Below are positions 1-22,852 of a stretch of DNA of 64,000 nucleotides, in pieces; position 1 is the first letter of the stretch; every line of letters begins with the position of its first letter. This DNA is from Hyphomicrobiales bacterium. Lineage in GTDB: Bacteria; Pseudomonadota; Alphaproteobacteria; Rhizobiales; Rhizobiaceae. The position numbers and the translations under genes were made by a program. The stretch lies in NCBI GenBank assembly GCA_900472785.1, contig UCJH01000009.1, forward strand, positions 72,382 to 136,381, written 5' to 3'. Below the pieces are notes generated by a model that worked only from the letters and a program-made list of their open reading frames with translations, did not search any database and was not told the DNA's origin.

Positions 1-1158
1 GGTGGCGAGGCGCCGATGCTGACCGGAATTGCCAACCGTTTCCGCGGCAGGGGCCTGACGGCACGCGTCGCGATTGCCGATACGTGGGGAGCCGCCCATG
101 CCTGCGCCCGCGCCATTACCCGCGACACCGTCATCGTTCCACGCGGTGAGACCGTCCGTGCCGTCGAAAGGCTTCCGATCTCGCTGCTGCGGCTGCCGGA
201 TAAGGTCGTAGGCGATCTGCGCACGCTCGGCTTCCAGACCATCGGAGAACTGTCGAACAAGCCCCGTGCGCCACTGACGCTGAGGTTCGGGCCGGAGATC
301 GGACGAAGACTGGATCAGATGTTCGGTCGAGCCGGAGAGCCGATCGATCCCATCCGAGGGCCGGAAATCATTTCCGTCACCAGATCCTTTCAAGAGCCAA
401 TTGGGGCTGCGGAGACGATCAACAAGTATGTCGGCCGCCTTGTGATCCAGCTTGTCGACGAGCTTCAAAAGAAGGGTCTGGGTGCCCGGCGCGTCGACCT
501 CATCGTCGACAAGGTCGATAACACCCGGCAGGCCATACGAGCGGGAACTGCGAAACCCGCCCGCGACGTCGCGTGGCTGACGAAGCTGTTCAAAGACCGC
601 ACAGAGAAGATCGAACCCGGATTCGGCATCGAGAAGCTGACGCTGGTCGCGGTGTGGGCGGAGCCGCTCGACGAGACACAGAAGGTGTCGTCGCTCGTCG
701 AAGAGGAGGTGGCCGACATCACGCCGCTGATCGACATCTTCGGCAACCGCGGGCAGCGGGTCTATAGGGTCGCACCGTTCGCATCCGACGTTCCGGAGCG
801 TTCGGTTGCGCAGGTCGATGCCGCGTCGGAACCGGAGGAGGCCACCTGGTCAGGCCATTGGCCACGCCCGATACGGCTGCTTCCCTATCCGGAGCTTGCA
901 GAGGTCATCGCCCTCATGCCCGATCACCCGCCAGTTTCCGTTACCTGGCGTGGCAAGCGCCGGAAGGTGAAGCGTGCCGACGGACCTGAGCGCATATTCG
1001 GCGAATGGTGGCAGCGTACATCGGAGTGGGCAGCCGTGCGCGACTACTTCGTCATCGAGGATGAATCGGGAGAAAGGCTCTGGGTTTTCCGGTCGGGTGA
1101 CGGGGTCGACGGTGAGACCGGATCCCATCGGTGGTTTGTCCAAGGGATCTTTGGATGA
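1..1158 (+). CDS. imuB: ImuB, Y-family polymerase-like mutasome protein (5' end cut by window)
   Basis: The reading frame is open from base 1, so the N-terminal part, including the palm region, lies outside the window; 385 residues remain. What is visible matches the thumb and little-finger part of ImuB/DinB-like proteins: an HhH-like stretch ([21 protein letters not shown]), then [20 protein letters not shown], then a divergent C-terminal domain. ImuB is known to be a catalytically inactive Y-family homologue that links ImuA and DnaE2 to the beta clamp in damage-induced mutagenesis. The stop codon overlaps the dnaE2 start (ATGA at 1155-1158), which indicates translational coupling in an imuA-imuB-dnaE2 type operon. 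imuA should lie just left of the window. Confidence 0.88.
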
Positions 1159-4100
1159 GGTACGCAGAGCTCCAGGTCACGACCCATTTCAATTTCCTCC
1201 GCGGAGCGTCCTCGGCCGCCGAGCTTTTCGAGCGTGCCAAGGAACTCGGCATCGACGCCATCGGCGTGGTCGACCGTAACTCTCTGGCAGGAATTGTCCG
1301 CGCACTGGAGGCTTCCCGGGCAACTGGGATCAAGCTCATTGTCGGCTGCCGCCTTGATCTCCAGGACGGGATGTCCGTACTCGTTTATCCGACCGATCGC
1401 GCAGCGTATTCCCGGCTGACGCGCCTGATCACGCTGGGGAAGTCCCGTGGCGGAAAGAACAACTGCATCCTGCACTGGGACGACGTCATCACCTACTCGG
1501 CGGGCATGATCGGGATCCTTGTGCCGGATCTCGCCGACGATACCTGTGCCGTGCATCTCAGGAAGATGTCAGAAGTGTTCGAGGATCGAGCCTATCTGTC
1601 CCTCTGCCTGCGCCGTCGGCCGAATGACCAACTCAGGATCCACGAGCTTTCGAACATGGCGACGCGGTTCAAGGTGAAGACCGTCATAACCAACGATGTG
1701 CTATTCCATGAACCTGGACGGCGGCAGCTTCAAGACATCGTCACCTGCATCCGCATGGGCACGACGATCGATGAGGTCGGTTTCGAACGCGAGCGCCATG
1801 CCGATAGATATCTCAAGCCTCCGGAGGAGATGGATCGTCTCTTTCCCCGGTATCCGGAAGCGCTGGCCCGTACGATGGAGATCGCCAGCCGATGTAAATT
1901 CTCGCTGGAAGAACTCACCTACCAATATCCTGAGGAAGCCATCATTCCCGGCAAGACGCCACAGGAATCCCTTGAGCATTATGTATGGGAGTGCATCCCG
2001 GATCGATATCCGGAAGGATTGCCGCCCGATGTCCTGAAGACCGTCCGGCACGAACTCGACCTGATCCAGAAGATGCGGTACGCGCCGTATTTCCTGACGG
2101 TGTTCTCGATCGTCAGGTTCGCGAGAAGCCAGAACATCCTGTGTCAGGGCCGCGGTTCGGCAGCCAACTCTGCTGTCTGCTATATTCTCGGGATCACCAG
2201 CATCGATCCGTCGACCAACGACTTGCTCTTTGAACGCTTCGTCAGTCAGGAGCGTGACGAGCCGCCGGATATCGACGTGGATTTCGAGCATGAACGCAGG
2301 GAGGAGGTCATCCAATGGATCTACAAGACCTACACGCGTGAGAAGGCCGCCCTCTGCGCCACCGTTACCCGGTACCGTGCGAAGGGCGCGATCCGTGACG
2401 TCGGCAAGGCGCTCGGCCTCCCGGAGGATCTGATCAAGGCGCTGTCGTCGGGCATGTGGTCGTGGTCCGAGGAGGTCAGCGACCGGAATGTCCGCGAACT
2501 CAATTTGAATCCTGACGACCGCCGACTGGTGCTGACCCTGCAACTCGCGCAGCAGCTCATGGGAGCGCCACGGCATCTCGGCCAGCACCCCGGTGGTTTC
2601 GTGCTGACCCATGACAGGCTGGACGACCTCGTTCCGATCGAGCCGGCGAGCATGAAGGACAGGCAGATCATCGAGTGGGACAAGGACGACGTCGAGGCGT
2701 TGAAGATGATGAAGGTCGACGTGCTCGCGCTCGGGATGCTGACCTGCATGAGCAAGGCGTTCGATCTCATCCGCGACCACAAGGACGAGGATCTGAACCT
2801 GGCTACGATAAAGCAGGAGGATTCCGCGACCTACGCCATGATCCGCAAAGCCGACACTCTCGGCACCTTTCAGATCGAATCCCGCGCCCAGATGGCGATG
2901 CTTCCCAGGCTCAAGCCACGGACATTCTACGATCTCGTAGTACAGGTGGCGATTGTCAGACCGGGGCCGATCCAGGGGGACATGGTACATCCGTATCTTC
3001 GCCGCCGAGAGGGTAAGGAGAAGGTAGAGTATCCCACGCCGGAACTCGAGGCGGTGCTCGGCAAGACCCTCGGGGTGCCACTTTTTCAAGAATCCGCGAT
3101 GCGCGTCGCGATGGTCTGCGCCGGATTCACGGGCGGCGAGGCCGACCAGCTTCGCAAGTCGATGGCCACGTTCAAATTCACTGGAGGGGTCTCGCGCTTC
3201 AAGGACAAGCTCGTCAACGGCATGGTGAAGAATGGCTACACCCTGGACTTCGCCGCGAAGACATTTAGCCAACTCGAAGGATTTGGATCCTACGGCTTCC
3301 CGGAAAGCCACGCGGCGTCGTTCGCCCTGATCGCGTATGCGTCGAACTTCGTCAAATGCCACCATCCGGACGCGTTCTGCGCAGCGCTCCTGAACTCGCA
3401 GCCTATGGGCTTCTATGCCCCGGCGCAGATCGTCGGCGATGCGCGCGCGCACGGCGTCGAAGTCGGACCTGTGTGCATCAACCGTTCCCGATGGGACTGC
3501 ACGCTCGAGAGGATCGGCAACACCGACCGCCACGCAGTCCGGTTGGGCATGCGCATGGTCAAGGGACTTGCCGCGGCCGAGGCCGCCCGGATCACCGCTG
3601 CCCGGATGATGACGGACTTCGACAGCGTCGATGACGTCTGGCGGCGATCAGGCGTTCCTGCCGAAGCTCTCGTGCAGCTCGCGGAGGCGGATGCATTCCG
3701 TCCGTCCTTGGAGCTCGAGCGCCGCGATGCTCTGTGGGCGATCAAGGCTCTGAGGGACGAACCACTGCCGCTGTTCGCTGCCGCCGCCGCGCGCGAGGAG
3801 CGGACGATCGCCGAGCAGCAGGAACCCGAGGTCACGCTCAGGCAGATGACCGATGGCCACAATGTCATCGAGGACTACAGCCACACGGGCCTGACCCTAC
3901 GACAGCATCCGATCGCCTTCCTGCGCAAGGATCTCGAAAGGCAGAACATAGTGACCTGCGAGGCGGCCATGAACGCCCGCGATGGCAGGTGGGTCTGCGC
4001 GGCCGGGCTGGTTCTCGTCCGTCAGAAACCAGGATCCGCGAAGGGCGTGATGTTCATTACGATCGAGGACGAGACCGGCCCCGCCAATATCGTCGTCTGG

Positions 4101-4424
4101 CCGAAGTTGTTCGAGAAGCGGCGGCGCGTCGTTCTGGGCGCGAGCATGATGGCGGTCCACGGAAGGATCCAGCGCGAAGGCGACGTCGTCCATCTCGTCG
4201 CGCAACAGCTTCTGGATCTCTCCGGAGATCTGTCGGCGCTGGCCGACCGCGACATCGATTTCAAGCTGCCGTCAGGACGCGGCGATGAATTCGCCCATGG
4301 ATCTCCCGGAGGAGGAGATTCCCGTGACCGGCCTAAGCCGAAGCCGATGCCGGAGGCGAGGGACATCTACGTCAGGGATCTGCACATCGATACGCTGAAG
4401 GTGAAGGCTCGCAACTTTCATTAG
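1155..4424 (+). CDS. dnaE2: Error-prone DNA polymerase DnaE2 (ImuC)
   Basis: A 1089-residue C-family polymerase. I chose ATG 1155 because the protein then begins [18 protein letters not shown], the usual DnaE2 N-terminus; an earlier in-frame start would only add residues inside imuB. A PHP domain occupies about the first 280 residues. The catalytic palm has PDIDVDF at about 371-377 (three acidic residues). An HhH region and a C-terminal OB domain ([17 protein letters not shown] and following) complete the standard order and length. It performs translesion synthesis together with ImuB. It overlaps imuB by 4 bp. There is no sign of frameshift. Family assignment is secure; placement in a mobile element is inferred from context only. 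Confidence 0.95.
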
Positions 4425-8521: not shown

Positions 8522-9337
8522 TCAGCCCGCCTTCCTACTCTTGAGTTCATCCGAGACGGATTTCCGCAGTGCATCCATGATGTTGACTACGTTCGATTTC
8601 GCCTCGGCGACCTCAGATTTCTTGCCCTTCGCAACTTTGTTCGGCTTGAGCGCCTTCTTCTTCTCAGCGATGAGCTTCAGCAGACTTTCCTGGATAGGGT
8701 CGCTCACCATGTCAGGCGACCAGCGGGTTGTCTTCTGTTTGATGAGCTGCTGAACGAGAGGGATCAGATCCGGATCGGCTTCGTCGTCTATATCTTCGAA
8801 ATAGGCCTCTTCAGGTCGGACCTCATCGCCGAAGCGGAGCGACCACAGGACGATGCCGTCATCGCGCGGTTCGAGGACAACCGCCTTCTCCCGGCGGCCG
8901 ATGACGAGTTTCGATATCCCCACGACCTTGTCGGCCTTCATCGCATCACGGATAACGGCGAAGGCCTCGTTGCCTACCGCGTCGTCCGGCATCAGGTAGT
9001 GGGGCTTCTCCAAGTAGACCCATTCGATGGAGTCGGCCGGAGCGAATTTCTCGATGTCGATCGTCTTCACGGTGTCGAGCGCGACATTGTCAAGGTCGTC
9101 GTCCGTGAGGATGACGTAATCGTTCTCCCCGCGCGCGTAGCCCTTGGCTTCGTTCTCGTTCTTGACAGTTTTGCCAGAGACAGAGTCGATGTACTGTGAG
9201 ACGACGCGGTTGCCCGTCTCCTTGTTCAGGGTGTGGAAGCGAACCTTTTCGCTCTCGGACGTCGCCGGGGTCATGGCGACTGGACACGTGACCAGCGACA
9301 GCTTGAGATAGCCTTTCCAATAGGGGCGAAGCGCCAT
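8522..9337 (-). CDS. ku: Ku DNA end-binding protein (second of two)
   Basis: A 271-residue bacterial Ku homologue. It begins MALRPYWKGYLKLSLVTCPV, the canonical Ku start, and continues with FHTLNKETGNRVVSQYID, the beta-barrel core (PDDAVGNEAFAVIRDAM, VLEPRDDGIVLWSLRF) and a C-terminal helix ending in KSRKAG. Ku forms a homo- or heterodimeric ring on double-strand ends and recruits LigD in non-homologous end joining. It follows the other ku gene after 11 bp. Paired ku genes are typical of rhizobia, where heterodimers are possible. No ligD lies in this window. Confidence 0.93.
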   Translation of the reverse strand: MALRPYWKGYLKLSLVTCPVAMTPATSESEKVRFHTLNKETGNRVVSQYIDSVSGKTVKNENEAKGYARGENDYVILTDDDLDNVALDTVKTIDIEKFAPADSIEWVYLEKPHYLMPDDAVGNEAFAVIRDAMKADKVVGISKLVIGRREKAVVLEPRDDGIVLWSLRFGDEVRPEEAYFEDIDDEADPDLIPLVQQLIKQKTTRWSPDMVSDPIQESLLKLIAEKKKALKPNKVAKGKKSEVAEAKSNVVNIMDALRKSVSDELKSRKAG

Positions 9338-9348
9338 GTCCTGTCTCC

Positions 9349-10254
9349 TTACCCTGCCTTGCGCTGCGGGGCAGCCTTCGACGACGCGGTCTTCGGTGCC
9401 GTCCCGCGCGCGGCGCGTTGCCTGCCAGCACCAGCGTTGGCATTGGCGGCGGTGCGTTTCGGCTTGTCTTCCGCCGCCTTCATCAGGCCTGCACTCTCCC
9501 GGAGCGCGGCCAGCAGGTCGTTCGGCTTGGAGACCGCAACCTTACTGCGTTTCGGCAGCGCTTTGCCCTCGATCTTCGCCTTCACCATCTCCTCAAGCGC
9601 GGCTTCGTAACGATCGTCGAAGGTTGCCGGGTCAAAGTCGCCCTTCTTGGTGCTGATGATGTGCTTCGCCAGATCAAGCATCTCGCCTTCGATCTTGATT
9701 TTCGGCATTCCCTCGAACGCCTTCTTCGATGAGCGGACCTCGTAGTCGTAGTTCAGGGTGGTGGCGATGAGCCCCTTGCCGTGGGGGCGGATCAGGACAG
9801 TTCGCATTCGGCGGAAGAGCACCGTCCTGGCAATGGCAGCAACCTTCGACTTCCGCATGCCGTCGCGGAGGGCCGCGAAGGCATCGGATCCCATTCTGTC
9901 CGGGGTCAGGTAGTAAGGCTTGTCGAAGTAGACGTCGTCCACGTCCGAGCACGGTATGAACGCTTCGATCTCAAGCGTCTTGTTGCTCTCCGGGATCGTT
10001 GCTGCGACCTCATCAGGGTCAATGATGATGTACTGGCCGTTCTCGATCTCAAACCCCTTGGTCTGCGCCTCTTTCGGAACAGGCTCTTCGGTCTCGCTGT
10101 CGATGAATACTCGATTGACGCGGTTTCCGGTGGCGGTGTTGATAGTATTGAACGTAATGCGATCCGACGTCGAGGCGGCGGTGTAGAGGGCTACCCCTGC
10201 GGACACCTCGCCGAATTTGATGAAGCCCTTCCACTGTGCACGCTGGCCTGCCAT
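9349..10254 (-). CDS. ku: Ku DNA end-binding protein (first of two)
   Basis: A 301-residue Ku homologue. I chose ATG 10254 because it gives MAGQRAQWKGFIKFGEVSAGVALY and has GGGAGA 8 bp upstream; the frame is open to 10278. The core matches the second ku gene (FNTINTATGNRVNRVFID, then YLTPDRMGSDAFAALRDGM). The C-terminal tail is longer and rich in Lys, Ala and Arg (AAPQRKAG end), as in Ku proteins with DNA-bridging tails. It is the first gene of a four-gene leftward operon with the second ku and two small genes. A promoter resembling the EcfG type lies upstream (10293-10318). Confidence 0.93.
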   Translation of the reverse strand: MAGQRAQWKGFIKFGEVSAGVALYTAASTSDRITFNTINTATGNRVNRVFIDSETEEPVPKEAQTKGFEIENGQYIIIDPDEVAATIPESNKTLEIEAFIPCSDVDDVYFDKPYYLTPDRMGSDAFAALRDGMRKSKVAAIARTVLFRRMRTVLIRPHGKGLIATTLNYDYEVRSSKKAFEGMPKIKIEGEMLDLAKHIISTKKGDFDPATFDDRYEAALEEMVKAKIEGKALPKRSKVAVSKPNDLLAALRESAGLMKAAEDKPKRTAANANAGAGRQRAARGTAPKTASSKAAPQRKAG

Positions 10255-10292
10255 CGAACTCTCCCACGCAACTGACACAACTTTGGCGATTC

Positions 10293-11697: not shown

Positions 11698-12672
11698 TCA
11701 GGGAGTAGAAAGACGGACAGCGACAACCTTCTCCAGCAGCTCCAAGAACTTCCCGTTCTCCTGCGAGCACTTCCAGAAATTCACGAAACGGCAGACGAGC
11801 TGAACGTTCTCGGGCTCGTAGTGCCCGTTACTGTCGATCCGATCCACCGAGGCAAGCATGTCGTAGTCTAGGTTCTCTTGACCGTCGACGTGCAGAGGTA
11901 GCCCGGTGATGGCGCAGATGCCCTCCTGCTTGATCATGAGATCGGCAAGGCGCGCTTTCATCTCCGGCTCAGGGCAGAGGAGCCTCTTATCCTTCAGGGT
12001 TCGGAGGACCTGCTGACCGTTCGAGTTTCGCACAGTGTCCCTGATCGTCATCATCATACGGGAGAGCACCAATTCCGAAAGCTCGACGTTACTTCCAAGG
12101 CTCTTTCCTTTGTCTGCGCCAAGGCGGTTTCTCCACTCCCGGAGCTGGTGCCACTGGTCGAGGTCATCGCCGTCGATCAATGCCGCGATGTATTCCTTCA
12201 TCATCGGATCGGCCACGCGGAAGACGGCCTGCTGCGTCGTCAGGTAGTCCTTGGCCTTAGGATGGATTGAGTTCCAAGTGAGAGGGACAGTACGACGGTT
12301 GCGGCGTGACCAAGGCGTGACGGGTTTCGCGATCATCACCTTCCCGTCGTACTCCTCAAACACCGGATCGGCTTCTGTCGTGGTGGCCCAGTAAAGGTCG
12401 TTGCCAGCACGGTGGAGCCAGATGTCATCCTCGCTTTCAGCGATCCGGGTTGCTCTATTGAACCAAGTCGTAGCTCGGCCTTTGACGTCGCTCTCGGTTA
12501 CACCCTTGGGTGCCGCCCTCATTTCCAGCCGGAGAAATTCCTCCCTATCTCCGGCGCGCCATGCCTCGAAGTAAGGAAGGTCGTAGCTGAGAGCCACGAC
12601 CTTCCGCTCCAGGCAATCCGCCCACAGCTCGTTCGCGTCCCCTGTCATTGCAATCAATATCTCGCCAGCCAT
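11698..12672 (-). CDS. HNH endonuclease with possible N-terminal base-reading domain
   Basis: A 324-residue protein starting MAGEILIAMTG (the frame is open to 12723). The C-terminal part contains an HNH-like site: CAITGLPL, then MLASVDRIDSNGHYEPENVQLVC. The N-terminal part (ATTWFNRATRIAESEDDIWLHRAGNDLYWA) resembles PUA/EVE-like domains that read modified bases in type IV restriction enzymes, but this is only a visual impression. It starts 79 bp after the tniQ stop on the same strand, so it is the last gene of the transposition operon or the first cargo gene. It could be modification-dependent restriction, or a nuclease serving transposition. Confidence 0.6.
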   Translation of the reverse strand: MAGEILIAMTGDANELWADCLERKVVALSYDLPYFEAWRAGDREEFLRLEMRAAPKGVTESDVKGRATTWFNRATRIAESEDDIWLHRAGNDLYWATTTEADPVFEEYDGKVMIAKPVTPWSRRNRRTVPLTWNSIHPKAKDYLTTQQAVFRVADPMMKEYIAALIDGDDLDQWHQLREWRNRLGADKGKSLGSNVELSELVLSRMMMTIRDTVRNSNGQQVLRTLKDKRLLCPEPEMKARLADLMIKQEGICAITGLPLHVDGQENLDYDMLASVDRIDSNGHYEPENVQLVCRFVNFWKCSQENGKFLELLEKVVAVRLSTP

Positions 12673-12751
12673 GCCACCCCTCCAGATTGCCCTCTGGATC
12701 GCAGGAATCCCCTTTGGGTGCAAGATAGCCTGGCCCTGGCGTTGTCGGAGC

Positions 12752-14935
12752 TTACTCCTTCTTCAGCTTCCTCGGGTTCTTGAAGTGCATGTACAGGGAC
12801 CGCAGCGCCACAGCCGCAACTTCGACATCCCAAGCCGTGCGGATCCTGAATTCCGCAGTGACGGATTCCCGCGCGGTCTTCTTCGACCACTTGAAAACCG
12901 ACCATTCCTCGCGGATCTGCCACTGGTTGGCGACGAAGACTGGCCATTCGCGCGAGGATGACTTCCTGAAGGTCTTTCGGACGATGAGGTCGTTACCATT
13001 GACCAGAAGCTCGACATAGGTCGCGCGCGTCGCGGTGTACGCCTTCACGTCTCGGCCTCCCATCGACGTCGGGAGAACGAATGAAGGGCAGACGCTTGCC
13101 ATTTCCTCCCGGAACCGCGGCCAGATCGCCGGATCGCCACTTCCGTGCCCCAAGGATCCGATTGCGAGCTCCATCGACTTCCGCTCGACAATGTAGACCT
13201 TGTTGCGGGTCGGCAGCCTGGCATGCCGTCTCAGGATGCCCAACTCCAGTAAGCGGGCTTCGAGATGATCCTCTTTGCATCCGAGACGATCAAGGTAGAG
13301 CTTGGCATTCACGTACTTCCCATGGAAGTCCTCAAAGGACCTTCGATCAAGGTAGACACGGCCGTCTTCGCCCTCGCGGGTCTTGATCAGGTTCGCGTCG
13401 ACCAGGATCGTCACGACCTCGGGCTGGTAGCCCATGAGTTCGGCGGCTTCGATCCTTCGGATTTCCCGGTCGCCCACTTGCCGCCGGAACGGCTTCTTAT
13501 GGACAATGGCCTCGAACTGCCAAGCTGAGATACCTTTTCGCCTCCGGTCGATCCTGCAGACCGACATCCTCCCGGCAAGTACGGCCTCGACGATCTGGGC
13601 ATCAGTGCACCCGATCTGCCGGGCGAGATACCCGATGCGATGCACCTGGCCGGATCCATTCGTGCAGGTGACACCGCGAATGCTCTGAGCGACCCTGTCG
13701 ATCTCGGATCCTCGCAACGCAAGTCCATGGCCCGCCGCGCCGAACAGCCGCGTATTGTTGAAGCCTGTGATCACACCGCTTTTCGCCAGCTTCCGTACGC
13801 ACTGCTGGCTGCATCCCAGCCGACTGGCAGCCTCGCTTACGGAGATCAGGTCTCGCGCTACAGCATGAAGCTCGTCCACCCGCTCTCGGCTGAGGAAGGC
13901 GCGGGATGCGGCCGACGCATCTTTCGGCACCAGACCGGCTTGCTGGGCAAGTCTCCTCAGGCCACGGACATCGGCTCCGAACTCGCCGGCGGCTTCCTTT
14001 ATCGTGAACTCCTGGTGCGGTAGCTCGATCTTGAGGTTTTGTCGACCGATACGCCCGACGGACGCGAATGCGCGGCGAGACGCGTTGTCGACATCCGGCC
14101 ATAGCGCTGCGCGCCGAAACCAGCCGTAAGCATTCTTGACCCCGCGATTGCGTTCGTCTTGCGAGACATGCTCTTCGAGCCAGCGGACGAACGCTGCCTC
14201 GACCTCGGTCGCGGATCCACGCAAGGTCTCGAAACCACGGCGGCAGTGTCCGGGATCCGCTCGAGGTGTCTTCGTGGTCCATGGATTCGCCACAAGACGA
14301 CCGACCATTGCGCAGGCGTCGATCACCTCGTGCAGCGGGGCTGAATCCAGGACCGGGCGCTCTGCCCCGGCCACGTAGCCGAGCCGGGACAACACATACC
14401 ATTCGAACCCGTCGGATTCCTCTGAGCGAGGCCGTGCACGAGGGAGGTATTCGCCGTCGGGAGCGCTTTCAAATGACGGAAACCACCACTTGATGCGATC
14501 TCCTGCCGCCGTCTCTTGTTCGATGGGGACACTGTGCAGGGGGCAGATCTGGAAATCAATGATGTCCCACCAAGATCGATGATAAGGCCCCTCCGCCAAG
14601 CATGCTCGGCAAAATCGCCGATTATAGAAGGACACCTGCCTTTTACGGAGAGTCTGACCCGCCAGGCAGTGAAAGTTGCCGTTCCAAACCGGAGTCCATC
14701 TGACAAGGGATTGCTTCCTGTCTTCCGGAAGAGGGAGGAGGAGCAGCTCGTTGAGGATCTCCTTAAGGACGATGTTGCGGCCGTTGATCTCCATTTCATT
14801 GGCATGGACGCGCGCACTGGCCTGATAGCCTTCACCGACAAGACGGGCGAAATAGTCCTGTGCTGGCTCGCCCGTTTCGGGTTTTGTCTGCCATGAAGCG
14901 AAGGGAAGGCGGCCTTTCCGGACGGAATGGTTCAT
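12752..14935 (-). CDS. tniQ: TniQ/TnsD-like target-selection protein
   Basis: A 727-residue protein; I chose ATG 14935, one base after the tniB stop (TGAGATG). The N-terminal TniQ domain shows the zinc-finger pattern C109-x2-C112-x18-C131-x2-H134 with SWWDIIDFQICPLHSVPI. Five successive HTH-like modules follow at about 310-336, 363-389, 432-457, 493-517 and 543-568 (for example ISVSEAASRLGCSQQCVRKLA and IGYLARQIGCTDAQIVEAV). The C-terminal 150 residues are not recognised. It is far longer than Tn402-type TniQ (about 400) and nearer in design to TnsD of Tn7, which binds a fixed chromosomal site. Its likely role is to recognise the tRNA-Arg region and recruit TniB. Confidence 0.85.
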   Translation of the reverse strand: MNHSVRKGRLPFASWQTKPETGEPAQDYFARLVGEGYQASARVHANEMEINGRNIVLKEILNELLLLPLPEDRKQSLVRWTPVWNGNFHCLAGQTLRKRQVSFYNRRFCRACLAEGPYHRSWWDIIDFQICPLHSVPIEQETAAGDRIKWWFPSFESAPDGEYLPRARPRSEESDGFEWYVLSRLGYVAGAERPVLDSAPLHEVIDACAMVGRLVANPWTTKTPRADPGHCRRGFETLRGSATEVEAAFVRWLEEHVSQDERNRGVKNAYGWFRRAALWPDVDNASRRAFASVGRIGRQNLKIELPHQEFTIKEAAGEFGADVRGLRRLAQQAGLVPKDASAASRAFLSRERVDELHAVARDLISVSEAASRLGCSQQCVRKLAKSGVITGFNNTRLFGAAGHGLALRGSEIDRVAQSIRGVTCTNGSGQVHRIGYLARQIGCTDAQIVEAVLAGRMSVCRIDRRRKGISAWQFEAIVHKKPFRRQVGDREIRRIEAAELMGYQPEVVTILVDANLIKTREGEDGRVYLDRRSFEDFHGKYVNAKLYLDRLGCKEDHLEARLLELGILRRHARLPTRNKVYIVERKSMELAIGSLGHGSGDPAIWPRFREEMASVCPSFVLPTSMGGRDVKAYTATRATYVELLVNGNDLIVRKTFRKSSSREWPVFVANQWQIREEWSVFKWSKKTARESVTAEFRIRTAWDVEVAAVALRSLYMHFKNPRKLKKE

Positions 14936-14936
14936 C

Positions 14937-15869
14937 TCAGGCCCCCATCTTGAAGTATTCGCGGGTGTCGCCGGGACGCTGCCGGATGGCAGCCTGCTCA
15001 TACAGATGACGAGGAAGAATCCGCGGGGCATCGTCGTTTAGGGCCTGCCATGCGGCTGGACGTACGACGTTGAATACCTGCCCGATCGCACCTCCTGTGA
15101 AATCAAAGAGGTCGCGCGCGATGGACTTGCTTGCCAGTCCAGAGGATTCCGAAAACGGAAGCCGGAGATTGACTTCCCGCAACAGGAGCCGGAATTGATC
15201 GAAAGCATCCTCTCCGAATGGCGCGAGGATCATTTTGGGAAATCCGCCTCGTCCGGCCAATGGTGCGTTGGCCTGGACATACCCGTAGATGTCTTCCTCG
15301 CCTACTAGCAGCACGTTGAGGACTTCGGTGTCGGCGAGTTGCTTCAGGAAACTGTAGAAATCCCTCCGGTGGTTCTTGCTGCGATCATGAAAGAAAAACT
15401 GGGCATCATCGATGATTACCAATTGCGCTCCCGCGCGGACAATCCTCGCGACCGCATTTCTCATAAGACTGGCGACCTTGATTTTCGGAGCAGTTCCCGG
15501 GCCTGTGGCCTCATAGATCATTTCAGCGAGGCTTTGCGGGGTATTCTCACCCGTGACCGGCAGGTAGATGACTGGATGAACGACTCCATGATCGGTATGA
15601 AACGGCGGCCACCGATTGCAGTAATGCTTGATGATGTCGGTCTTTCCAGCACGGGTCTTTCCCATCAACCCCGCGACCATGCGGGTTCCATGGCTGCCGC
15701 CCGCAACAGGATAATGCAGCTTCTCGATGAAAGCGGTGATGTCATCGAAGACCGGATAGGTGACGAGGAGAGTATCGATCAGTGTTTTCCGCTCCAGGCG
15801 GCCAAGCATACTGACGGCACGCCGGGCTTCCGGGGTCTCGAATTTGGTGGTGTGAAAATGAGTGATCAT
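14937..15869 (-). CDS. tniB: TniB/TnsC-like AAA ATPase of transposition
   Basis: A 310-residue AAA+ ATPase. Walker A is GKTRAGKT at 70-77 and Walker B is LVIIDDA at about 150-156, followed by a sensor-like LLVGEEDIYG. The start ATG 15869 has GGAAAA upstream and begins 2 bp after the tniA stop; an upstream GTG at 15884 would add five residues. In Tn7 and Tn402 systems this protein couples target recognition (TniQ) with the transposase and polymerises on DNA. It is one of a set of four genes in the order TnsA-like, TniA, TniB, TniQ. Confidence 0.92.
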   Translation of the reverse strand: MITHFHTTKFETPEARRAVSMLGRLERKTLIDTLLVTYPVFDDITAFIEKLHYPVAGGSHGTRMVAGLMGKTRAGKTDIIKHYCNRWPPFHTDHGVVHPVIYLPVTGENTPQSLAEMIYEATGPGTAPKIKVASLMRNAVARIVRAGAQLVIIDDAQFFFHDRSKNHRRDFYSFLKQLADTEVLNVLLVGEEDIYGYVQANAPLAGRGGFPKMILAPFGEDAFDQFRLLLREVNLRLPFSESSGLASKSIARDLFDFTGGAIGQVFNVVRPAAWQALNDDAPRILPRHLYEQAAIRQRPGDTREYFKMGA

Positions 15870-15871
15870 GG

Positions 15872-18199
15872 CTACTTTTTCCACGTTGGATTTCTAGCGA
15901 GGAGGTCATCGATGTCGTCGTCGTCATCGAGAGCAGGCGGCGGAGCGGTCTCACGAGGAAGTGGCCCATGATGGGTGCCATCGGCCTTCTTCTGTTTGCG
16001 CGTCTTAGGAGTCTCAGGCTCCGGCACAACGGGGGCGGACGGCGGCACATTCTCCTTGATGTCGATTGGAAGGGTGTAAAGATTGGTGTTGACCGCTGCC
16101 GCTGTTGACATGTTGATCGCGCCATTAGCTTCCTGGCGGGCAAGCTCGAGCGTCTTCCTTCGTCGATCGGCAATGACGTGACCTTGGACGAATTTTGCCA
16201 ACTTGTGAGCCGGATCAAGCTTCTTCCGGTTTTCCTCGATCAGATCCAAGATCATTCGGTGCATCCTCCGACGCGCCTCCAGGAGGGTGGGAACCTGCCT
16301 TTTCGCTCTCGCCTCGCTGCGACGGTAGGCCAGGACCATCTTGTGAATGTCCATGCTCATGTCCTTGCAGTACTCAAGATCAGGTCCCACCGCCTGCACC
16401 TCGATGCTTTCCTCGCGGTAGGGGTCGGTTACCCAGGCTTGCCCGATGTTGTTGACGTTGATGGTGAGATCGAATGTGGTCGTGGCGTGTCCGGGCCTGG
16501 CTCTCTTCGTCTTCGGATGTAGCGACAAAGCAAGCAAGCCTGGTGCGTTGTAGTGGATTCCATCGGTGCGGATGCCATCCTTCTGGATCGTCACTCGCCG
16601 ATGCTCTCCGGCTAGACGGGCGAAGATCGAACGATCGAGCAGCGGGCGGCGCGGGATCGATGTTTCGTGCTTTGCCCAGAGTTCTGCTGGAACTCCCTCG
16701 AAGGTGAGAAGGTCACCGCCCAGACCCGCACGCGGTGTCTGATGATGGATAGTGGCGATCCAGTGCTGCAGCACGGTCTCCACCTCGGACAATGACAGCA
16801 AGGGCACTGCCATGTCGCGATCCTCTCCGAACAGTTCCCGAATTTTCGGGGATTCCATGGTGGAGCCGGGCAGGGCATGGAAGACATCCCTTGTGATGGT
16901 TCCCAGGGCTCTCTCAAGCGCGCCCTTGTCCCCGGGGCGCCCTGGCCTGTACTCAACGATATCGAAACCAAGGGTTCTGGCCGCCGCACTGATCGAGTCA
17001 CCAATAAAATGCAGCGCATTATCGACGCCAAGGCGGTTGAATAGTCCGAACCATGGCCAGGACACGCCCGCTAGAAGGCGGTCTTCAAGACCGAAGATCG
17101 CAAGTTCGAGCCCCCTCAAGAACGTCGTATACGACGGGTCGCCAAAGCTCGGCAGAGCAGCGATCACAATTCCGGTCATCCGCTCCCGGAAGACAAGCAG
17201 GTCAAGACGACCGAAGGCGAGGGGATTGGCATCGAGATACGCCACGATATCCGTTTTGAGATGGTCGACGTCCACGATATCCATCAGGCACTGAGGCCGC
17301 GCGATACGAATGTATTGCTGGTTCTTCGCCGCGGCAGTTTCCTGACCGAAGCGAAGCAGGTCCCTCGTGTAGAAATCAACGGAGCTCAGCTTCTCGTCGA
17401 ACGAGCTTTTGCCGATCTTCAACACGCCCTCGCTATCGACTCCCCGGTGCCGGACAGTCTCAAAGCGCGGATCGTTGAGGAGTAGCTCAATGAAATGATC
17501 CTGCATCGTCTTGTAGTCGCCCTTCGGCTGCGACCATGCAAAATGGGCGGCGATCTCGAGTGCCTCGTGGATCAGCGGATGCAGGCGCAGGGTTTCATTG
17601 CCGCCACGCTTCTTCCTTGCGAAGTTCATCAGACGGTCGAACCGCGTGCCACCGCGATCCCTTCCAACCATCTTTCGCAGCCATTCGTAGCTCGGAGGTT
17701 CCTCACCTCTTCTAGCCGCAATCTCCGCGAGGAATTCCCGGGTGATCTTCTTCGACGGGCCGCGTGAAGAGCGTACCTTCTCAAAGAACGGATAATATTC
17801 ATCGACATAGTCCATCGCGCGCTCGGCCTCGAGGCGATCGGCTTCCGCCAAGGCTAGCGCCGATCCTGGCAGTCGACGCCTGCCATCGGATCCGACGGGG
17901 ACGATACGCCCCGCCTTCTCCAGCTTCCGCATACCAGCATTGGAAAGCGGGACCTGCTCGCCGTTTTCAAGGCGGGTGAAGATCGCTACCTTCGTGGACA
18001 TCTGGGTAAGCTGCAGCCACTCTTTGAATCGTGTTTCGCTGTACTTCTGCCTGCCCTCGGAAAAGAGCAGCACACGATCACCTGGCTTCAGGTCGAAGAT
18101 CTGGCCGTCAACCTCACCCGGTACGATAGCCGGAAGCTCGAGATCCTGTGCCGTCAATACCGGCTGCATGAATTCAAAATGTTTGGAGACGAAAGACAT
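15872..18199 (-). CDS. tniA: TniA/TnsB-like DDE transposase (Mu-type C-terminal domain)
   Basis: A 775-residue rve-superfamily transposase. ATG 18199 overlaps the upstream stop (TAATG), which supports this start over the open frame to 18319. The catalytic triad is D312 (VDVDHLKTDI), D393 (RLGVDNALHF) and E429 (DKGALERALGTI), with the D-x35-E spacing of DDE enzymes. The N-terminal 290 residues include HTH-like DNA-binding regions; the part after 550 matches the Mu-type C-terminal domain, and the end is charged and disordered. It binds the end repeats and performs strand transfer. It should bind the three repeats at 22,701-22,762. Confidence 0.93.
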   Translation of the reverse strand: MSFVSKHFEFMQPVLTAQDLELPAIVPGEVDGQIFDLKPGDRVLLFSEGRQKYSETRFKEWLQLTQMSTKVAIFTRLENGEQVPLSNAGMRKLEKAGRIVPVGSDGRRRLPGSALALAEADRLEAERAMDYVDEYYPFFEKVRSSRGPSKKITREFLAEIAARRGEEPPSYEWLRKMVGRDRGGTRFDRLMNFARKKRGGNETLRLHPLIHEALEIAAHFAWSQPKGDYKTMQDHFIELLLNDPRFETVRHRGVDSEGVLKIGKSSFDEKLSSVDFYTRDLLRFGQETAAAKNQQYIRIARPQCLMDIVDVDHLKTDIVAYLDANPLAFGRLDLLVFRERMTGIVIAALPSFGDPSYTTFLRGLELAIFGLEDRLLAGVSWPWFGLFNRLGVDNALHFIGDSISAAARTLGFDIVEYRPGRPGDKGALERALGTITRDVFHALPGSTMESPKIRELFGEDRDMAVPLLSLSEVETVLQHWIATIHHQTPRAGLGGDLLTFEGVPAELWAKHETSIPRRPLLDRSIFARLAGEHRRVTIQKDGIRTDGIHYNAPGLLALSLHPKTKRARPGHATTTFDLTINVNNIGQAWVTDPYREESIEVQAVGPDLEYCKDMSMDIHKMVLAYRRSEARAKRQVPTLLEARRRMHRMILDLIEENRKKLDPAHKLAKFVQGHVIADRRRKTLELARQEANGAINMSTAAAVNTNLYTLPIDIKENVPPSAPVVPEPETPKTRKQKKADGTHHGPLPRETAPPPALDDDDDIDDLLARNPTWKK

Positions 18200-19098
18200 T
18201 ATCCGAGCCTCCTGGACACGGTGGTGGATGGTCCGAACGGGCGGCTCATGTCGAATTCGATCTTGCCCACGTACGCTAATCGTAGGATCGAGCTGGCTAC
18301 GACATTTATGCCAGCACATGGACGAGCGGCTTCAGGTGCCTCATCTTGCCATCGTTCCGTCAGCACGTTGAATGGCACCGCCTCGGACAGATGAGCCACG
18401 GTAGCTGGCAGCGGGTGATCGAGAATGCTGCGTTCGACGGCAGAGAGATCCGTTTCACCCCATCGCGGCCTATTGGAGTGGATTAGATTGCGGTTGTAGA
18501 AGCGAGGCTGACTGAGGATCTGTCCAGCCCACATGATTTCATAGGTTGCGCCGCAGTCTTTTTCTAAGGAGAGACCAAGTTCCCGATTACGTTTGCTGCA
18601 CCGCGCTGCATCGACGTCATGCAGGAAATCGATGAATCCGACCGTGCCGTTCCGGCGGAGCACGGCTACATCAGGAATGTGATCTTTCCACTCGGTGCTC
18701 GTTTCATCGCGCGTGGCCGCGATGTAGCGGATCGTAATCGGGAAGGGGGCGATGGCGATGATATCCGGATCGCCGTCGAGCAGCGTAAGTCCATGCAACA
18801 TCCATGGTCCCCGGGCAATCACCATGCCGGATGACCGCACCTTCCTCGTCGTAAACTTGAAGCGACTGTGCTCGCGCACACGGGCCGGAAACGACACGCG
18901 CGGCTCGTGATCCGCCGAGAACAGATACTCGAACGTGCGGCGCAAGTGCTCGGGCTTCCATTCAGACGCATGAGGAACGCACTGCAGGAGCACCTTGTAG
19001 TCATCGAGTGTCGATCGCTTGCGGTCATCCGACGGCAACGGCTTCGTTACGCGGGTCGGCTTCTTCATTTTTCGGGCAGGGCGATGAGGACTTGGCAT
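18199..19098 (-). CDS. TnsA-like protein, apparently lacking two catalytic residues
   Basis: A 299-residue protein, first gene of the transposition operon. Residues 92-200 follow the TnsA nuclease pattern: LLDGDPDIIAIAPFPITIRY, then DHIPDVAVLRRNGTVGFIDF. The aspartate of the PD motif (142-143) is present. At the position of the first catalytic Glu there is ARGPWMLH, and where the E-V-K motif is expected there is FIDFLHDVD, without Lys. It may thus be a non-cleaving subunit. The start at 19098 has AAGGAG 7 bp upstream; an in-frame ATG at 19278 with GGAGAGG at 8 bp is also plausible and would add 60 residues. The stop overlaps tniA by one base. Confidence 0.7.
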   Translation of the reverse strand: MPSPHRPARKMKKPTRVTKPLPSDDRKRSTLDDYKVLLQCVPHASEWKPEHLRRTFEYLFSADHEPRVSFPARVREHSRFKFTTRKVRSSGMVIARGPWMLHGLTLLDGDPDIIAIAPFPITIRYIAATRDETSTEWKDHIPDVAVLRRNGTVGFIDFLHDVDAARCSKRNRELGLSLEKDCGATYEIMWAGQILSQPRFYNRNLIHSNRPRWGETDLSAVERSILDHPLPATVAHLSEAVPFNVLTERWQDEAPEAARPCAGINVVASSILRLAYVGKIEFDMSRPFGPSTTVSRRLG

Positions 19099-19953
19099 TT
19101 TGACTCTCCTTTTTACGTGAAAAAAGGACAGCTCACCGATGTCCGCCAGGGCGGGGGCAGGCGAGGCGGCCAATGGAGCCAGCTTTTTCAGCAGAGATGT
19201 CGAGATCCCGAACTTTTCGAGATTTTCGATATCGATCGGCATGTTGCGTACGCACGGGCTGTGAGCATGACTGATCATTGGCAATGCCTCTCCGTTCACG
19301 CCCCGGGTGCCGGAGCGCGTTCGATGAACTATCTGTTGACATCGGCCAGAACGGGTGGATTTCGCCTGGCGCGCATGCAAGGTCCCACAGGTCGAACCGC
19401 TCGGCAAGAGCTGTGGAACCGCTAACAAATTGATAAGATTGAGGATTCGACGATGGATCCTTGAGGCGTGCGCCAAGTATATCGCGACAAGCGAGTCCTG
19501 CGCCGAGTCCTTTTTGGGACATCGTTGCAAGTAGATCGCAAGCACCGACAGGCTCTGCAATCGAGACGGCGTAGCATCTGCGGAAGTCAAACGACCCGAC
19601 AGCGCAACCCGCGGCAGGGACGATGTGGTGCCTTTGAATCTTTGAAGTCTCGCAGTCGCGTGCGAACGCGCGGCCTTAGGCTCGCGAAGGGATTCCTATT
19701 CGTATTCGCATCGTGTGCATCGCCATGTTTCCTTCATGGAATCCTGGTGGCTCGGCTGTGGCATCATCATGAGCCGGGGAGCCGTATGGATTGCGAGAAA
19801 CCATATGTTCCGTTTCTGTTCTGACGTCAACGGGCCCCACTGAAATTTTCCGGTTGGCTGGAGTGTCGACGAGCCGGATTGATTTCTATGTGATCTCTCA
19901 ACCTTTTCGTGCGAGGCTGCCGCGACAGGGGAGTCGGTCACGGCGGGGGAGAC
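19099..19953. other. Gene-free divergent region between tnsA-like and DUF4365 genes
   Basis: This 855-bp stretch has no convincing gene; the short frames in it are fragmentary. It should carry the promoters of both divergent operons. The last 180 bp before 19098 may be coding if the longer TnsA-like start (19278) is used. A small palindrome GTTC-GAT-GAAC lies at about 19319-19329. No copy of the 19-bp end repeats was seen here. Confidence 0.55.
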
Positions 19954-20514
19954 GTGCTCACAAAGAACCACGCACAGGAGGGGCTGAGCCGGGCATACAT
20001 GCAAGCGGTGTCATCCACGGCGCGAGTATGGATGAGTATGCAGGACGAATTCGACTATGGATTCGATGGCCAGCTCGACTTGATCGCGGACATCCGGGTG
20101 GATCCAGACGGTCGACGGCAACTCATAAAGGCCGGATATGTCATCGATTTCCAGCTCAAGTGTTCGCAGAACTGGACCGAGATCGGTGACGACATCGTCT
20201 GGAGCATCAAGTCTAGCGCGTACAACAAGCTCGCAGGACGCGGTGCGGGTGCGATACCGTCCGTTCTCATCCTGATGTGCCTTCCGGATGATCAGACACC
20301 GTGGGCTGAATTCTCGGAAGATTCGCTCGTCCTTCGTAAGTGCTGCTACTTCACCACGATATCTGGCCCGCGACTGGAAAATGACGCCTCCACGAAGCAA
20401 ATCAGGATCCCCAGGACCAATCTTCTGGATTCATCGAGCTTGTTGAGCATCCTCGAGCAGAATAGAACCCGCCTCGACGGCTTCTTCGCACCAAGGGCCG
20501 AGGAAGCGCCATGA
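19954..20514 (+). CDS. DUF4365 protein, putative PD-(D/E)XK nuclease
   Basis: A 186-residue protein. The pattern matches DUF4365: LSRAYMQAVSSTARVW, then YGFDGQLDLIADI, then YVIDFQLKCS, then YNKLAGRGAG, SVLILMCLPDD and PWAEFSED. D38 (in GFDGQLDL) and Q67-x-K69 (FQLK) fit a PD-(D/E)XK core of the QxK type. The start is uncertain: GTG 19954 has GGGGGA very close upstream, and GTG 19909 is also open. It is the first gene of a three-gene operon; its stop overlaps the next start (ATGA). DUF4365 domains are often found in antiphage loci. The function here is inferred, not shown. Confidence 0.75.
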   Translation: MLTKNHAQEGLSRAYMQAVSSTARVWMSMQDEFDYGFDGQLDLIADIRVDPDGRRQLIKAGYVIDFQLKCSQNWTEIGDDIVWSIKSSAYNKLAGRGAGAIPSVLILMCLPDDQTPWAEFSEDSLVLRKCCYFTTISGPRLENDASTKQIRIPRTNLLDSSSLLSILEQNRTRLDGFFAPRAEEAP

Positions 20515-21626
20515 AGATCAGTCGCCAAAACATAGAGCGCTACCTCGATGATCGTGGCTGGAAGCGTCAGGTTAGCGCAGACGCGTCCTTGATAAGGTAC
20601 CAGCTCACGGGCGACGAAGGCTTGAACGGAGCCGTGAATATCTTCTTTTCGAGTACCGACGATCTGGACGTGCGCGTAAACGAAGCTGCTGCAGCGCTGG
20701 AGGTGATCCGGCAGGTCTACAATCTCTCCGAACCAGCTTTGCGGGCTGGCCTGACGTCCCTGGCGTTTGACAAGATTCTCGCCACGATCCCCGACGACTA
20801 CATCAGAAACGAATCCATAGAGCTTCGTGCGGCCAGATCCTACCTGAATGGAATGAAGGGCTTGATCGCAGCATCCGCGATGAGCGAGCTGACAGGCGAG
20901 CGGACATTCCGGAGAACGAACAAGGAGGCTTCGGACTATGCGGACAGGTGCCGGTTCGCGCATACCTTCAAGGGCAGCTTCGGCCTCGCTATCGAATCTC
21001 CAGTAGGATTCAATGACCAGACTGAACTTGCGTTCATCGAGCCGACGATCCCATTTGGTCGCAAGGTAATCCGCCGCATCGCGAACGGCCTCCAGTCGGT
21101 TGTAAAGTCCTTCAGTGAGGATAGTCTATCGCCGATCCTGGACGCTGCCGATGGTCTCAACGCCAACATGTGCAGCGAGTTGGTCAGCATAATCGATCGG
21201 TCAGAGATCCCCCGGATCGATATCGCTTTTGTGCTCTCGCCCGAGTGGGAGCCCGACGTTCCGCCACCGCCGGCCTTCCACATCGATGCCCGATATCGAG
21301 AGCTGCTGAAGGACGCATCCGCCCGACTGACCTCTGAGGACGACGCGCAACCTGTTACAGTTGTCGGCCGCATCGTCAACTTGCACGCAGATCTCGATCC
21401 CGATGACCTGCTAGATGCCGACGTCGATCGCATCGTTCAGGCGAACTGGGATAGCCCCGAGCACGGCCTCATCAAGGTTTCAATCGGCTTGAGTCCGGCA
21501 GGTTACCTTGCCGCGGTCGAAGCTCATGGCAAAGGTCAGCTCATTTCCGTTCAAGGCGCACTGCGACGCAAATCGCGTTCGTGGATCCTACAGGATGCAC
21601 AGGAGCCGAGGTTCATCCAGATATGA
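20511..21626 (+). CDS. Unknown protein, middle gene of the putative defence operon
   Basis: A 371-residue protein that I do not recognise. The start overlaps the DUF4365 stop (ATGA at 20511-20514) and the stop overlaps the HEPN start (21623-21626). The N-terminal half is mixed, with a helical part at about 85-145. The C-terminal 90 residues (VTVVGRIVNLHAD, then KVSIGLSP, GQLISVQGALRRKSRSWILQDA) show alternating beta strands like an OB fold, suggesting nucleic-acid or ligand binding. No transmembrane segment or catalytic motif is visible. Its position between a nuclease-like and a HEPN protein suggests a sensor or scaffold. Confidence 0.65.
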   Translation: MKISRQNIERYLDDRGWKRQVSADASLIRYQLTGDEGLNGAVNIFFSSTDDLDVRVNEAAAALEVIRQVYNLSEPALRAGLTSLAFDKILATIPDDYIRNESIELRAARSYLNGMKGLIAASAMSELTGERTFRRTNKEASDYADRCRFAHTFKGSFGLAIESPVGFNDQTELAFIEPTIPFGRKVIRRIANGLQSVVKSFSEDSLSPILDAADGLNANMCSELVSIIDRSEIPRIDIAFVLSPEWEPDVPPPPAFHIDARYRELLKDASARLTSEDDAQPVTVVGRIVNLHADLDPDDLLDADVDRIVQANWDSPEHGLIKVSIGLSPAGYLAAVEAHGKGQLISVQGALRRKSRSWILQDAQEPRFIQI

Positions 21627-22180
21627 GTGTTGGTGATCAGGATTCGGCATTGTCGCGGCTGGACTTCGATCGTCTGAGCTTTGATCCCCGGGAGCTTTCC
21701 GCGCGGCTTGCTGCAGCAGAGGATTGGGGGAAGCTGGTCGTTTGCCACATCTATCTCGACCACATCCTCACAGCAGCCCTGACGGATCATATGCCGAGAG
21801 CCGAATCCTATCTGAAGAGCGGCTACAAGACATTCGCAGATAAGGTTGCACTATGTCAGGCGCTTGCGATTATCGACGACGAGATCGCTGTGACGCTGAA
21901 GTCCATCAACCGTCATAGAAACAAGTTCGCCCACCGACTTGTATTTGACGTTCCGGACGAAACCAAGGTTGCCCTCTTCAAGGAATTCTCACCGTCGAGG
22001 CCGAAGGAGCATGTTCTCGGCCCGGATGGGTTCGACAATTTCCTCTTCACCGTCGTGATGCTTTCAGAATTTGAACGCATCTACACCCAGGTGATCGCCG
22101 AAAAAGATAGGGAGATCGCGTTCCATCGCGAGCGGATGCTGGAGATCGCGATCGATATGTTCGCGGAGCCAAGGATTTAA
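21623..22180 (+). CDS. HEPN-domain protein (MltR/DUF4145-like)
   Basis: A 185-residue, mainly helical protein. It contains KTFADKVALCQALAIID and the motif R99-N100-KFA-H104 (INRHRNKFAH), the HEPN signature RN-x3-H that forms the RNase site in many toxins and defence effectors. The closest overall pattern that I know is MltR/DUF4145. ATG 21623 overlaps the preceding stop. It ends the three-gene operon. It may be an RNase effector, or a non-catalytic HEPN protein as in MltR. The following 520 bp to the transposon end repeats are gene-free. Confidence 0.75.
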   Translation: MSVGDQDSALSRLDFDRLSFDPRELSARLAAAEDWGKLVVCHIYLDHILTAALTDHMPRAESYLKSGYKTFADKVALCQALAIIDDEIAVTLKSINRHRNKFAHRLVFDVPDETKVALFKEFSPSRPKEHVLGPDGFDNFLFTVVMLSEFERIYTQVIAEKDREIAFHRERMLEIAIDMFAEPRI

Positions 22181-22700
22181 TCCTTCCGGCCTATTGGTGG
22201 TAGGGTTGTGATACGCGTTCTGGCGCCTGCGCTTGAGAGCCATGTACCGTGTTTGAAGCTATATTTTTACTATTCTAAGCCATTTCTTGCGTCTTTTTAA
22301 TGTAACTTCGGTGCCGATATCCGCGTGCCGTAATTACATGCATAATTCTGTGTGTCAGGGTGTATAGATCCGGTGAAATCTCGCAATTTTTGGCGCGGTT
22401 GCACGAAAAATAGGCCGAAATTTATTTTCCAACCCATTCCGAAGCGATGTTGAGCTTGAGCGTTACTCTCAAGGACTCAATCCTTGTGGAGACGTGCTAG
22501 CGCCTTCTTCGCCGTTCCAAAAACATCCACAAAATGATCGGAAAAAGAGCCTGCCGAGCGGTGCTGCCGCTCTCGTTTCGATCGACTGCCCTGGGGCCAT
22601 GCAGGCGGCTGCGGCAGATCAATGCTAACTGCCCGACGACCGGCCACAAAATGCCTTATCGGAGGCCGTTTACTGATTTTATTGGGTTATTTTGAACTGG
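22181..22700. other. Gene-free segment before the transposon right end
   Basis: These 520 bp contain no credible gene. The first part is AT-rich relative to its neighbours. Two overlapping inverted repeats lie at 22,455-22,486: CTTGAG/CTCAAG and CAAGGA/TCCTTG. They could form alternative hairpins but have no T run. I saw no integrase, CRISPR repeat or tRNA-like structure. Confidence 0.6.
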
Positions 22701-22768
22701 GTGTACGCTGATGCCAAGCCCAGTGCACGTTGTTGGCAAGCTGGTGTACGCTGTTGCCAAGCACTACA
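22701..22768. mobile_element. Putative right end of the Tn7-like element: three 19-bp repeats and terminal TACA
   Basis: Three repeats lie at 22701-22719 (GTGTACGCTGATGCCAAGC), 22723-22741 (GTGCACGTTGTTGGCAAGC) and 22744-22762 (GTGTACGCTGTTGCCAAGC). The first and third differ by one base; the second differs from the third by three. The 21-22-bp spacing (two helical turns) is like the TnsB sites of Tn7 ends. The array is followed by ACTACA ending at 22768, so the outward-read end begins TGTAGTGCTTGGC, consistent with the usual 5'-TGT. The flank GAAGC (22769-22773) would be one copy of a 5-bp target duplication. Confidence 0.75.
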
Positions 22769-22775
22769 GAAGCTT

Positions 22776-22852
22776 TGGTGCACCCGACTGGATTCGAACC
22801 AGTGACCTCTGCCTTCGGAGGGCAGCACTCTATCCAGCTGAGCTACGGGTGC
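22776..22852 (-). tRNA. tRNA-Arg, anticodon CCG, with encoded CCA
   Basis: A 77-nt tRNA gene on the minus strand. The acceptor stem is GCACCCG with CGGGTGC, the discriminator base A and CCA (22778-22776). D-arm AGCTGGATAGAGT, anticodon stem CTGCC/GGCAG with loop CTCCGAA, and T-arm ACTGGTTCGAATCCAGT are all standard. The anticodon CCG reads CGG arginine codons. The 3' end faces the putative transposon end, 7 bp away. Confidence 0.96.

Follow-up and report, generated by a model that had tools for sequence, protein, structure and literature searches.

Tn7 has a characteristic gene layout and is inserted by TnsABCD at attTn7, beside glmS, and elements of the Tn5053/Tn402 group carry the gene set TniABQR. 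Passages of PMC10293859 set out the roles of the Tns proteins of Tn7, and a passage of PMC8649781 notes Tn7-like insertions downstream of tRNAs. Here we describe such an element in a 64,000-nt stretch of a Hyphomicrobiales (Rhizobiaceae) genome (assembly GCA_900472785.1, contig UCJH01000009.1, positions 72,382-136,381; hereafter the window). A first-pass annotation of the letters had placed a Tn7-like element at window positions 11,698-22,852 and proposed that it uses the 3' end of a tRNA-Arg gene as its attachment site. Our data indicate that the locus is, very probably, a complete 45,977-bp transposon of the Tn7-like type that homes to the 3' end of tRNA-Arg(CCG). The annotated range does hold the end repeats and the transposition operon, but it covers only about a quarter of the element, the left end of which precedes window base 1, and its first gene (11,698-12,723) looks like cargo outside the tni set. 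The tRNA-proximal end comprises the following features.

1-22,768, no strand: right-hand part (22,768 of 45,977 bp) of the element; left end at G000:C139:49173 (contig C139 of the window's own genome)
22,701-22,719, plus strand: putative transposase-binding-like repeat R3, offset 50 from the element end
22,723-22,741, plus strand: putative transposase-binding-like repeat R2, offset 28 from the element end
22,744-22,762, plus strand: putative transposase-binding-like repeat R1, starting 7 bp from the element end
22,769-22,773, plus strand: target-site duplication GAAGC, the other copy of which is at C139:49168-49172
22,776-22,852, minus strand: intact tRNA-Arg(CCG) with encoded CCA, 7 bp separating the element end from the tRNA 3' end

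The three 19-bp repeats, described earlier as spaced by 21-22 bp, were recovered at the same positions with spacings of 22 and 21; at a tolerance of 3 mismatches, the window contains three matches compared with 0.01 expected from shuffled sequences, which is far beyond chance. The TACA terminus ending at 22,768, the GAAGC at 22,769-22,773 and the tRNA-Arg(CCG) gene from 22,776 are likewise where they had been noted. To find the left end, which had been predicted to show inverted repeat copies and a second GAAGC, we searched the window's own genome with the repeat consensus. At up to 3 mismatches the consensus matched 54 times and the reversed pattern 41 times, which leaves the best match class as the only informative one. 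This class (0-1 mismatch) holds seven matches: the three on the tRNA side, three in inverted orientation at C139:49179-49306, and one on another contig. Both predicted features are present on the same contig, and the element thus spans C139:49173-95149, starting 23,208 bases ahead of the window's first base and finishing at window position 22,768. GAAGC is followed by TGTGG at the left end, and CTACA is followed by GAAGC at the right, tRNA-side end, giving a perfect 5-bp duplication, TGT...ACA ends and three mutually inverted 19-bp sites at either end, all of which are hallmarks of Tn7-like elements. Measured from the left end, the sites begin at 7, 85 and 116 bp; measured from the right end, they begin at 7, 28 and 50 bp. 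These offsets are identical in two relatives, one in Sinorhizobium meliloti USDA1021 and one in Rhizobium leguminosarum USDA 2370.

Comparison with these and other genomes supports the proposed attachment site. An unoccupied site is found in G692, from the same genus, where the element's own left flank matches at 88% and 79% identity and reaches a point 25 bp from the tRNA-Arg gene (tni proteins were not looked for in G692). On pSymB of USDA1021, a 33,950-bp relative (TniA identity 64-66%) lies 5 bp from tRNA-Arg(CCG), and the site is empty in strains Rm41 and SM11, which match the USDA1021 left flank at 99.6% and 98.7% over 2,616 columns. A 33,491-bp relative in USDA 2370 also lies 5 bp from tRNA-Arg(CCG), with a perfect AAGAC duplication, and all three elements at this tRNA are oriented alike, with the right end facing the target gene. 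We compared 35 tRNA-Arg(CCG) loci (33 distinct), of which 27 came from the genus of the window (two of the places counted twice) and 8 from plasmid records, with USDA 2370 outside this count. At least two repeats within 300 bp occur only at the window's own locus and in USDA1021, both of which have tni genes (the remaining loci were not each searched for such genes); repeats beside this tRNA in strains without tni genes, which would have spoken against the first-pass annotation, were thus absent. The two ends, the duplication, the empty sites and the repeated occupation together support the tRNA-Arg 3' end as the attachment site, with a role for TniQ that is suggested by protein family. One of the remaining loci, from the congeneric genome G689, holds the remains of a different element subtype at tRNA-Arg(CCG) (L090, L101 and L102), with an end resembling that of the G619 element described below.

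The transposition operon, annotated at first as TnsA-like/TniA/TniB/TniQ, is borne out by Pfam for TniB, by a profile for TniA and by Foldseek matches for the TnsA-like protein and TniQ.

12,752-15,031, minus strand: TniQ, 759 aa and TnsD-sized, with a zinc finger, a helix-turn-helix and structural-model matches; proposed reader of the tRNA site
14,937-15,884, minus strand: TniB/TnsC AAA+ ATPase (PF05621, 44.1 bits, cut-off 22.4)
15,872-18,319, minus strand: TniA/TnsB DDE transposase, 815 aa, with D352, D433 and E469 invariant in 12/12
18,202-19,098, minus strand: TnsA-fold protein, 299 aa from its conserved part, in an open reading frame (ORF) readable to 19,590; Met and Leu at the Glu and Lys positions

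TniA scores 16.3 bits against Mu-transpos_C, under the Pfam cut-off of 21.7, and its profile finds TnsB chains (PseTnsAB, 6.5e-63; Tn6677 TnsB, 6.1e-51; Tn7 TnsB, 5.7e-17), such that it supplies the TnsB-type DDE transposase, and TniB the AAA+ regulator, of a Tn7-like element. The target selector of the TniQ/TnsD type is recognized from a Pfam score just under the cut-off (26.3 bits versus 27), from ten Foldseek hits of the model at E <= 0.001, all of them TniQ (one at 5.2e-06), and from zinc-finger residues C141, C144, C163 and H166, which are invariant in 8/8 aligned proteins and followed by helix-turn-helix hits further on. Measured stop to stop, TniQ has 717-815 residues in 8 of 13 relatives; the G660 protein has 551, and those of the remaining four are cut or interrupted. 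A large TniQ with a Cys/His finger, a helix-turn-helix and a TniQ-like core is the layout of TnsD proteins that read DNA directly, according to passages of PMC10293859, and we infer that the site is chosen by this large TniQ. The TnsA-like protein has no Pfam hit, the TnsA family included. The only Foldseek hits of its AlphaFold model (mean pLDDT, the predicted local distance difference test score, 71.6) at E <= 0.001 are Tn7 TnsA structures (1f1z and 1t0f), and 10/10 members match the NCBIfam TnsA-like model NF033179 at E <= 0.1, the window protein with 22.6 of 110 bits; the TnsA endonuclease fold is assigned from these matches. Going by these families, TniA would bind the 19-bp sites, TniB would join TniA to the target, and TniQ would read the tRNA gene and direct the right end to a position a few bp beyond the encoded CCA.

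Several relatives lie at other tRNAs. We examined 18 loci and found a tRNA junction in six, with both ends in four (the window's own, USDA1021, USDA 2370 and G1014) and the tRNA side only in two (G619 and G551); the more distant of them are 4-7 bp from tRNA-Thr(GGT), tRNA-Glu(CTC) and probably tRNA-Arg(TCT). G619 (TniA 35% identical over 682 residues) has three 22-nt repeats, spaced by 22 and 21 and ending in CTACA, 6 bp from tRNA-Thr(GGT). G1014, a member of a different family, carries an element of 32,773 bp at tRNA-Glu(CTC), bounded by TGTTG...CAACA; its perfect ATAGT duplication takes in the last A of the tRNA's CCA, and its operon is located at the element end far from the tRNA. In G551, a weaker triple repeat is followed 7 bp later by a tRNA 3' half. 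Its sequence agrees with tRNA-Arg(TCT), the probable site of that element, an intact copy of which lies some 18 kb further along; the 3' fragment (L061:7480-7590) and the intact copy (L119:6508-6584) look like the marks of a second island at this tRNA. In both G619 and G551, the operon stands at the start of its contig, and no left end was found. A scan of 17 sequences (360,081 bases) for the triple repeat gave four hits at 13 of 17 matches, every one at a junction, and lower thresholds recovered G551 together with matches in L070, L105, L114 and L119 that we take for chance; in the last pieces (L133-L151), tRNA genes and their 3' flanks were inspected by eye instead. A tRNA rule for every relative was considered and set aside, as G660, G445, G836, G906 and G801 were traced over 79-139 kb with no clear junction. 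TniA matches occurred in 14/394 genomes of the family (E <= 1e-15), 3/297 of the order (E <= 1e-20) and, with the profile, 5/385 of the class (E <= 1e-60), the own genome included each time, and a single scan of genome contigs gave two loci; five weaker TniA matches (G105, G394, G415, G393 and G602) and 2,872 of 2,873 plasmid records, all below 60% identity, were left aside.

A number of observations weigh against our reading of the element and its site. The other 12 of the 18 loci gave no tRNA junction: four are on short contigs, and none was found in the fetched DNA of Root708, G595, G660, G445, G266, G836, G906 and G801. G836 has a tRNA-Glu(CTC) gene about 24 kb upstream, without end repeats. 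The tniA gene of Root708 contains an internal stop, and a different contig carries its tRNA-Arg. USDA1021 and USDA 2370 have degenerate copies of the outermost left site, with 3 and 4 mismatches respectively, and the USDA1021 duplication is imperfect (AAGAT/AAGAC), with the last element base changed to T; since its tniQ (L017:4255-6459) also has an in-frame stop, this copy may be decayed. The structural matches have low TM-scores (template modelling scores; 0.23-0.44 for TniQ, the model of which has a mean pLDDT of about 72, and 0.32-0.40 for the TnsA fold), and sequence searches of solved structures gave only a weak TniQ match (E 0.07) and, with the TnsA-like protein, no TnsA.

Two other ways of reaching a tRNA gene fit the locus poorly. 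An integrase-driven island that happens to carry tni genes would account for the position, since tRNA 3' ends are classical island sites, and the tRNA 3' fragment of G551 resembles an island junction. Searches for resolvase (PF00239) and tyrosine recombinase (PF00589) domains at E <= 0.001, however, gave no hit within three complete elements, and the 5-bp duplication and the site arrays at both ends are those of a transposon; we regard such an island as extremely improbable. RNA-guided insertion, in the manner of a type V-K CRISPR-associated transposon (CAST) with a guide matching the tRNA gene, has in its favor that tRNA genes are the usual V-K sites (passages of PMC11406308), but the element and the 150-bp site share no identical words of at least 13 nt. 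Their longest common word, 12 nt, occurs once, compared with a mean of 2.2 in 200 random host pieces. A TniQ of 759 aa also counts against RNA guidance, and no Cas hit was found among the scanned ORFs, which are a part of the total (no search was aimed at CRISPR arrays as such). We hold this route to be very improbable, if slightly less so than the island. Homing of a Tn7-like transposon by its own TniQ is the reading that we retain.

How the element is cut free of its donor is less certain. We aligned 18 TnsA proteins, 13 from the clade of the window element and five outgroups. The outgroups (5/5) have the motif E...PD...(E)xK, with Glu and Lys kept, at positions that we take to be the Glu/Asp/Lys catalytic ones of Tn7 TnsA. 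In all 13 clade proteins, the Glu has become Met, Ser, Ala or Val and the Lys has become Leu, Phe, Val, Met, Glu or Arg, so that none has the full Glu/Asp/Lys set of a cut-and-paste Tn7; the second Asp, at the (D/E)xK position, is kept in 13/13 and the first, at the PD position, in 9/13. In a TniA tree of 17 rows (Root708 was excluded for the internal stop in tniA), the 12 clade rows form one side of a branch with support of 100/99. The clade TnsA-fold protein appears, therefore, to have lost its active site, and the loss of Glu and Lys suggests that it no longer cuts the 5' ends. If so, insertion would proceed by copy-in, as in ShCAST, which lacks TnsA and forms cointegrates (passages of PMC9371665). 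Because no resolvase or recombinase hit was found in the three complete elements, host recombination is assumed to resolve the cointegrate, and TnsA may have been retained as a structural subunit. Alternatively, the TnsA-like protein could still cut through a rearranged active site, and the element would then move by cut-and-paste. The retained fold and Asp residues, and a Lys one residue past the lost one in G595, are compatible with this, and the insertions seen are simple, as cut-and-paste would also leave them; yet no common substitute takes the place of Glu and Lys, and the Arg that immediately precedes the helix is replaced by Lys (G660) or Ser (G445). We consider continued cutting unlikely, though a much more serious contender than either of the two routes above. 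Tentatively, with chances that we place just short of even, we propose that in this clade TnsA persists as a structural subunit with no catalytic activity, that copy-in takes place in the absence of an element-encoded resolvase, and that the TniQs have been repeatedly retuned to the 3' ends of different tRNAs, 4-7 bp from the CCA.

The passenger genes within the window include the following.

1,131-4,424, plus strand: error-prone polymerase DnaE2, downstream of an ImuB-like gene (IMS_C hit) and a gene that is ImuA-like by position only
8,522-10,278, minus strand: two adjacent Ku-like genes (8,522-9,337 matches the Ku model; 9,349-10,278 by reading)
11,698-12,723, minus strand: HNH-like protein adjoining tniQ (called HNH by reading, without a hit in Pfam, NCBIfam or PADLOC)
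19,909-20,514, plus strand: DUF4365/PDC-M02A candidate defence gene
20,511-21,626, plus strand: PDC-M02B candidate defence gene
21,581-22,180, plus strand: protein without a family hit

Across the element, cargo matches comprise RNase H, Mrr-like, DruM/DruF-like, Vsr, AAA/M41, IMS_C, DnaE2, ferritin-like, SRAP, Ku, exonuclease-like, DUF4365 and PDC-M02B. The HNH gene, as the best conserved tniQ neighbor in USDA1021 (79-80% identical), was an attractive replacement for TnsA. We rejected this role because neither the USDA 2370 element nor the Root708 stretch contains a match to the gene, and because nine of the ten family genomes that contain it (10/394) have no TniA match. Three of its plasmid neighborhoods (of 23 records) have no annotated tni gene within 8-10 kb; on two plasmids it is beside repABC genes, and it is a candidate restriction or defence gene. 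The ImuA-like, ImuB-like and DnaE2 genes resemble a mobile SOS mutagenesis set (window 1-4,424 and L011:11305-12108), also present in the USDA 2370 element at 79-89% identity. Some cargo modules are 79-89% identical in protein to those of relatives (among the USDA 2370 matches listed), compared with 64-66% for TniA, which suggests exchange of modules between elements. Before the window, at C139:65433-68055, a small uncharacterised gene occurs in all three complete elements at 87-89% identity, exceeding the transposases; beside it is an AAA/M41 (IetA-like) gene at 61-62%, only half matched in USDA 2370. A Druantia-like defence block (L010:4111-10519 and L011:3-4877) encodes a cytosine methylase, a DruF-like protein and a very large helicase-domain protein.

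The principle of homing to tRNA genes by a TnsD-type protein is already known, having been published for type I-D and I-B2 CASTs, alongside the tRNA-downstream insertions noted above. In the open-licence literature searched, we did not find the alphaproteobacterial set, the 4-7 bp spacing or the loss of TnsA residues in print, and passages of PMC6360697 hold nothing on the window element; the loss of Glu and Lys in all 13 clade proteins, together with the lack of resolvase hits in the three complete elements, looks new. A tRNA site would be constantly available and stays whole after insertion. The natural pairs of TniQ and tRNA (Arg-CCG, Thr-GGT, Glu-CTC and probably Arg-TCT) are a source from which reading rules of TnsD-type proteins could be derived without CRISPR, and a clade that retained the tnsA gene after losing two active-site residues is a natural test of a non-cutting role for TnsA.

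With Tn5053/Tn402, the window element shares the TniA/TniB/TniQ naming and, probably, the copy-in route. In the Tn5053 clade, the lack of tnsA is linked with a resolvase (passages of PMC8649781), whereas here the TnsA fold is kept and a resolvase gene was not found in the three complete elements. In type I-D (CyCAST, Tn7575) and type I-B2 (PmcCAST) CASTs, as here, a TnsD-type protein leads to insertion beside tRNA genes, with the tRNA varying by element (passages of PMC10293859 and PMC11406308). Those systems have a fused TnsA-TnsB and CRISPR, whereas the genes are separate here and no CRISPR was seen (arrays were not searched for), and CyCAST inserts 30-33 nt past the tRNA, compared with 4-7 bp for elements of the window type. 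Like Tn7, the window element has the gene order tnsA-B-C-D read away from the right end, a right end towards the target gene, TGT/ACA ends, TnsB-type site arrays, a 5-bp duplication and a large TniQ/TnsD protein; it differs from Tn7 in that its target is a tRNA 3' end, the TnsA Glu and Lys are lost, and the proteins are only distantly alike.

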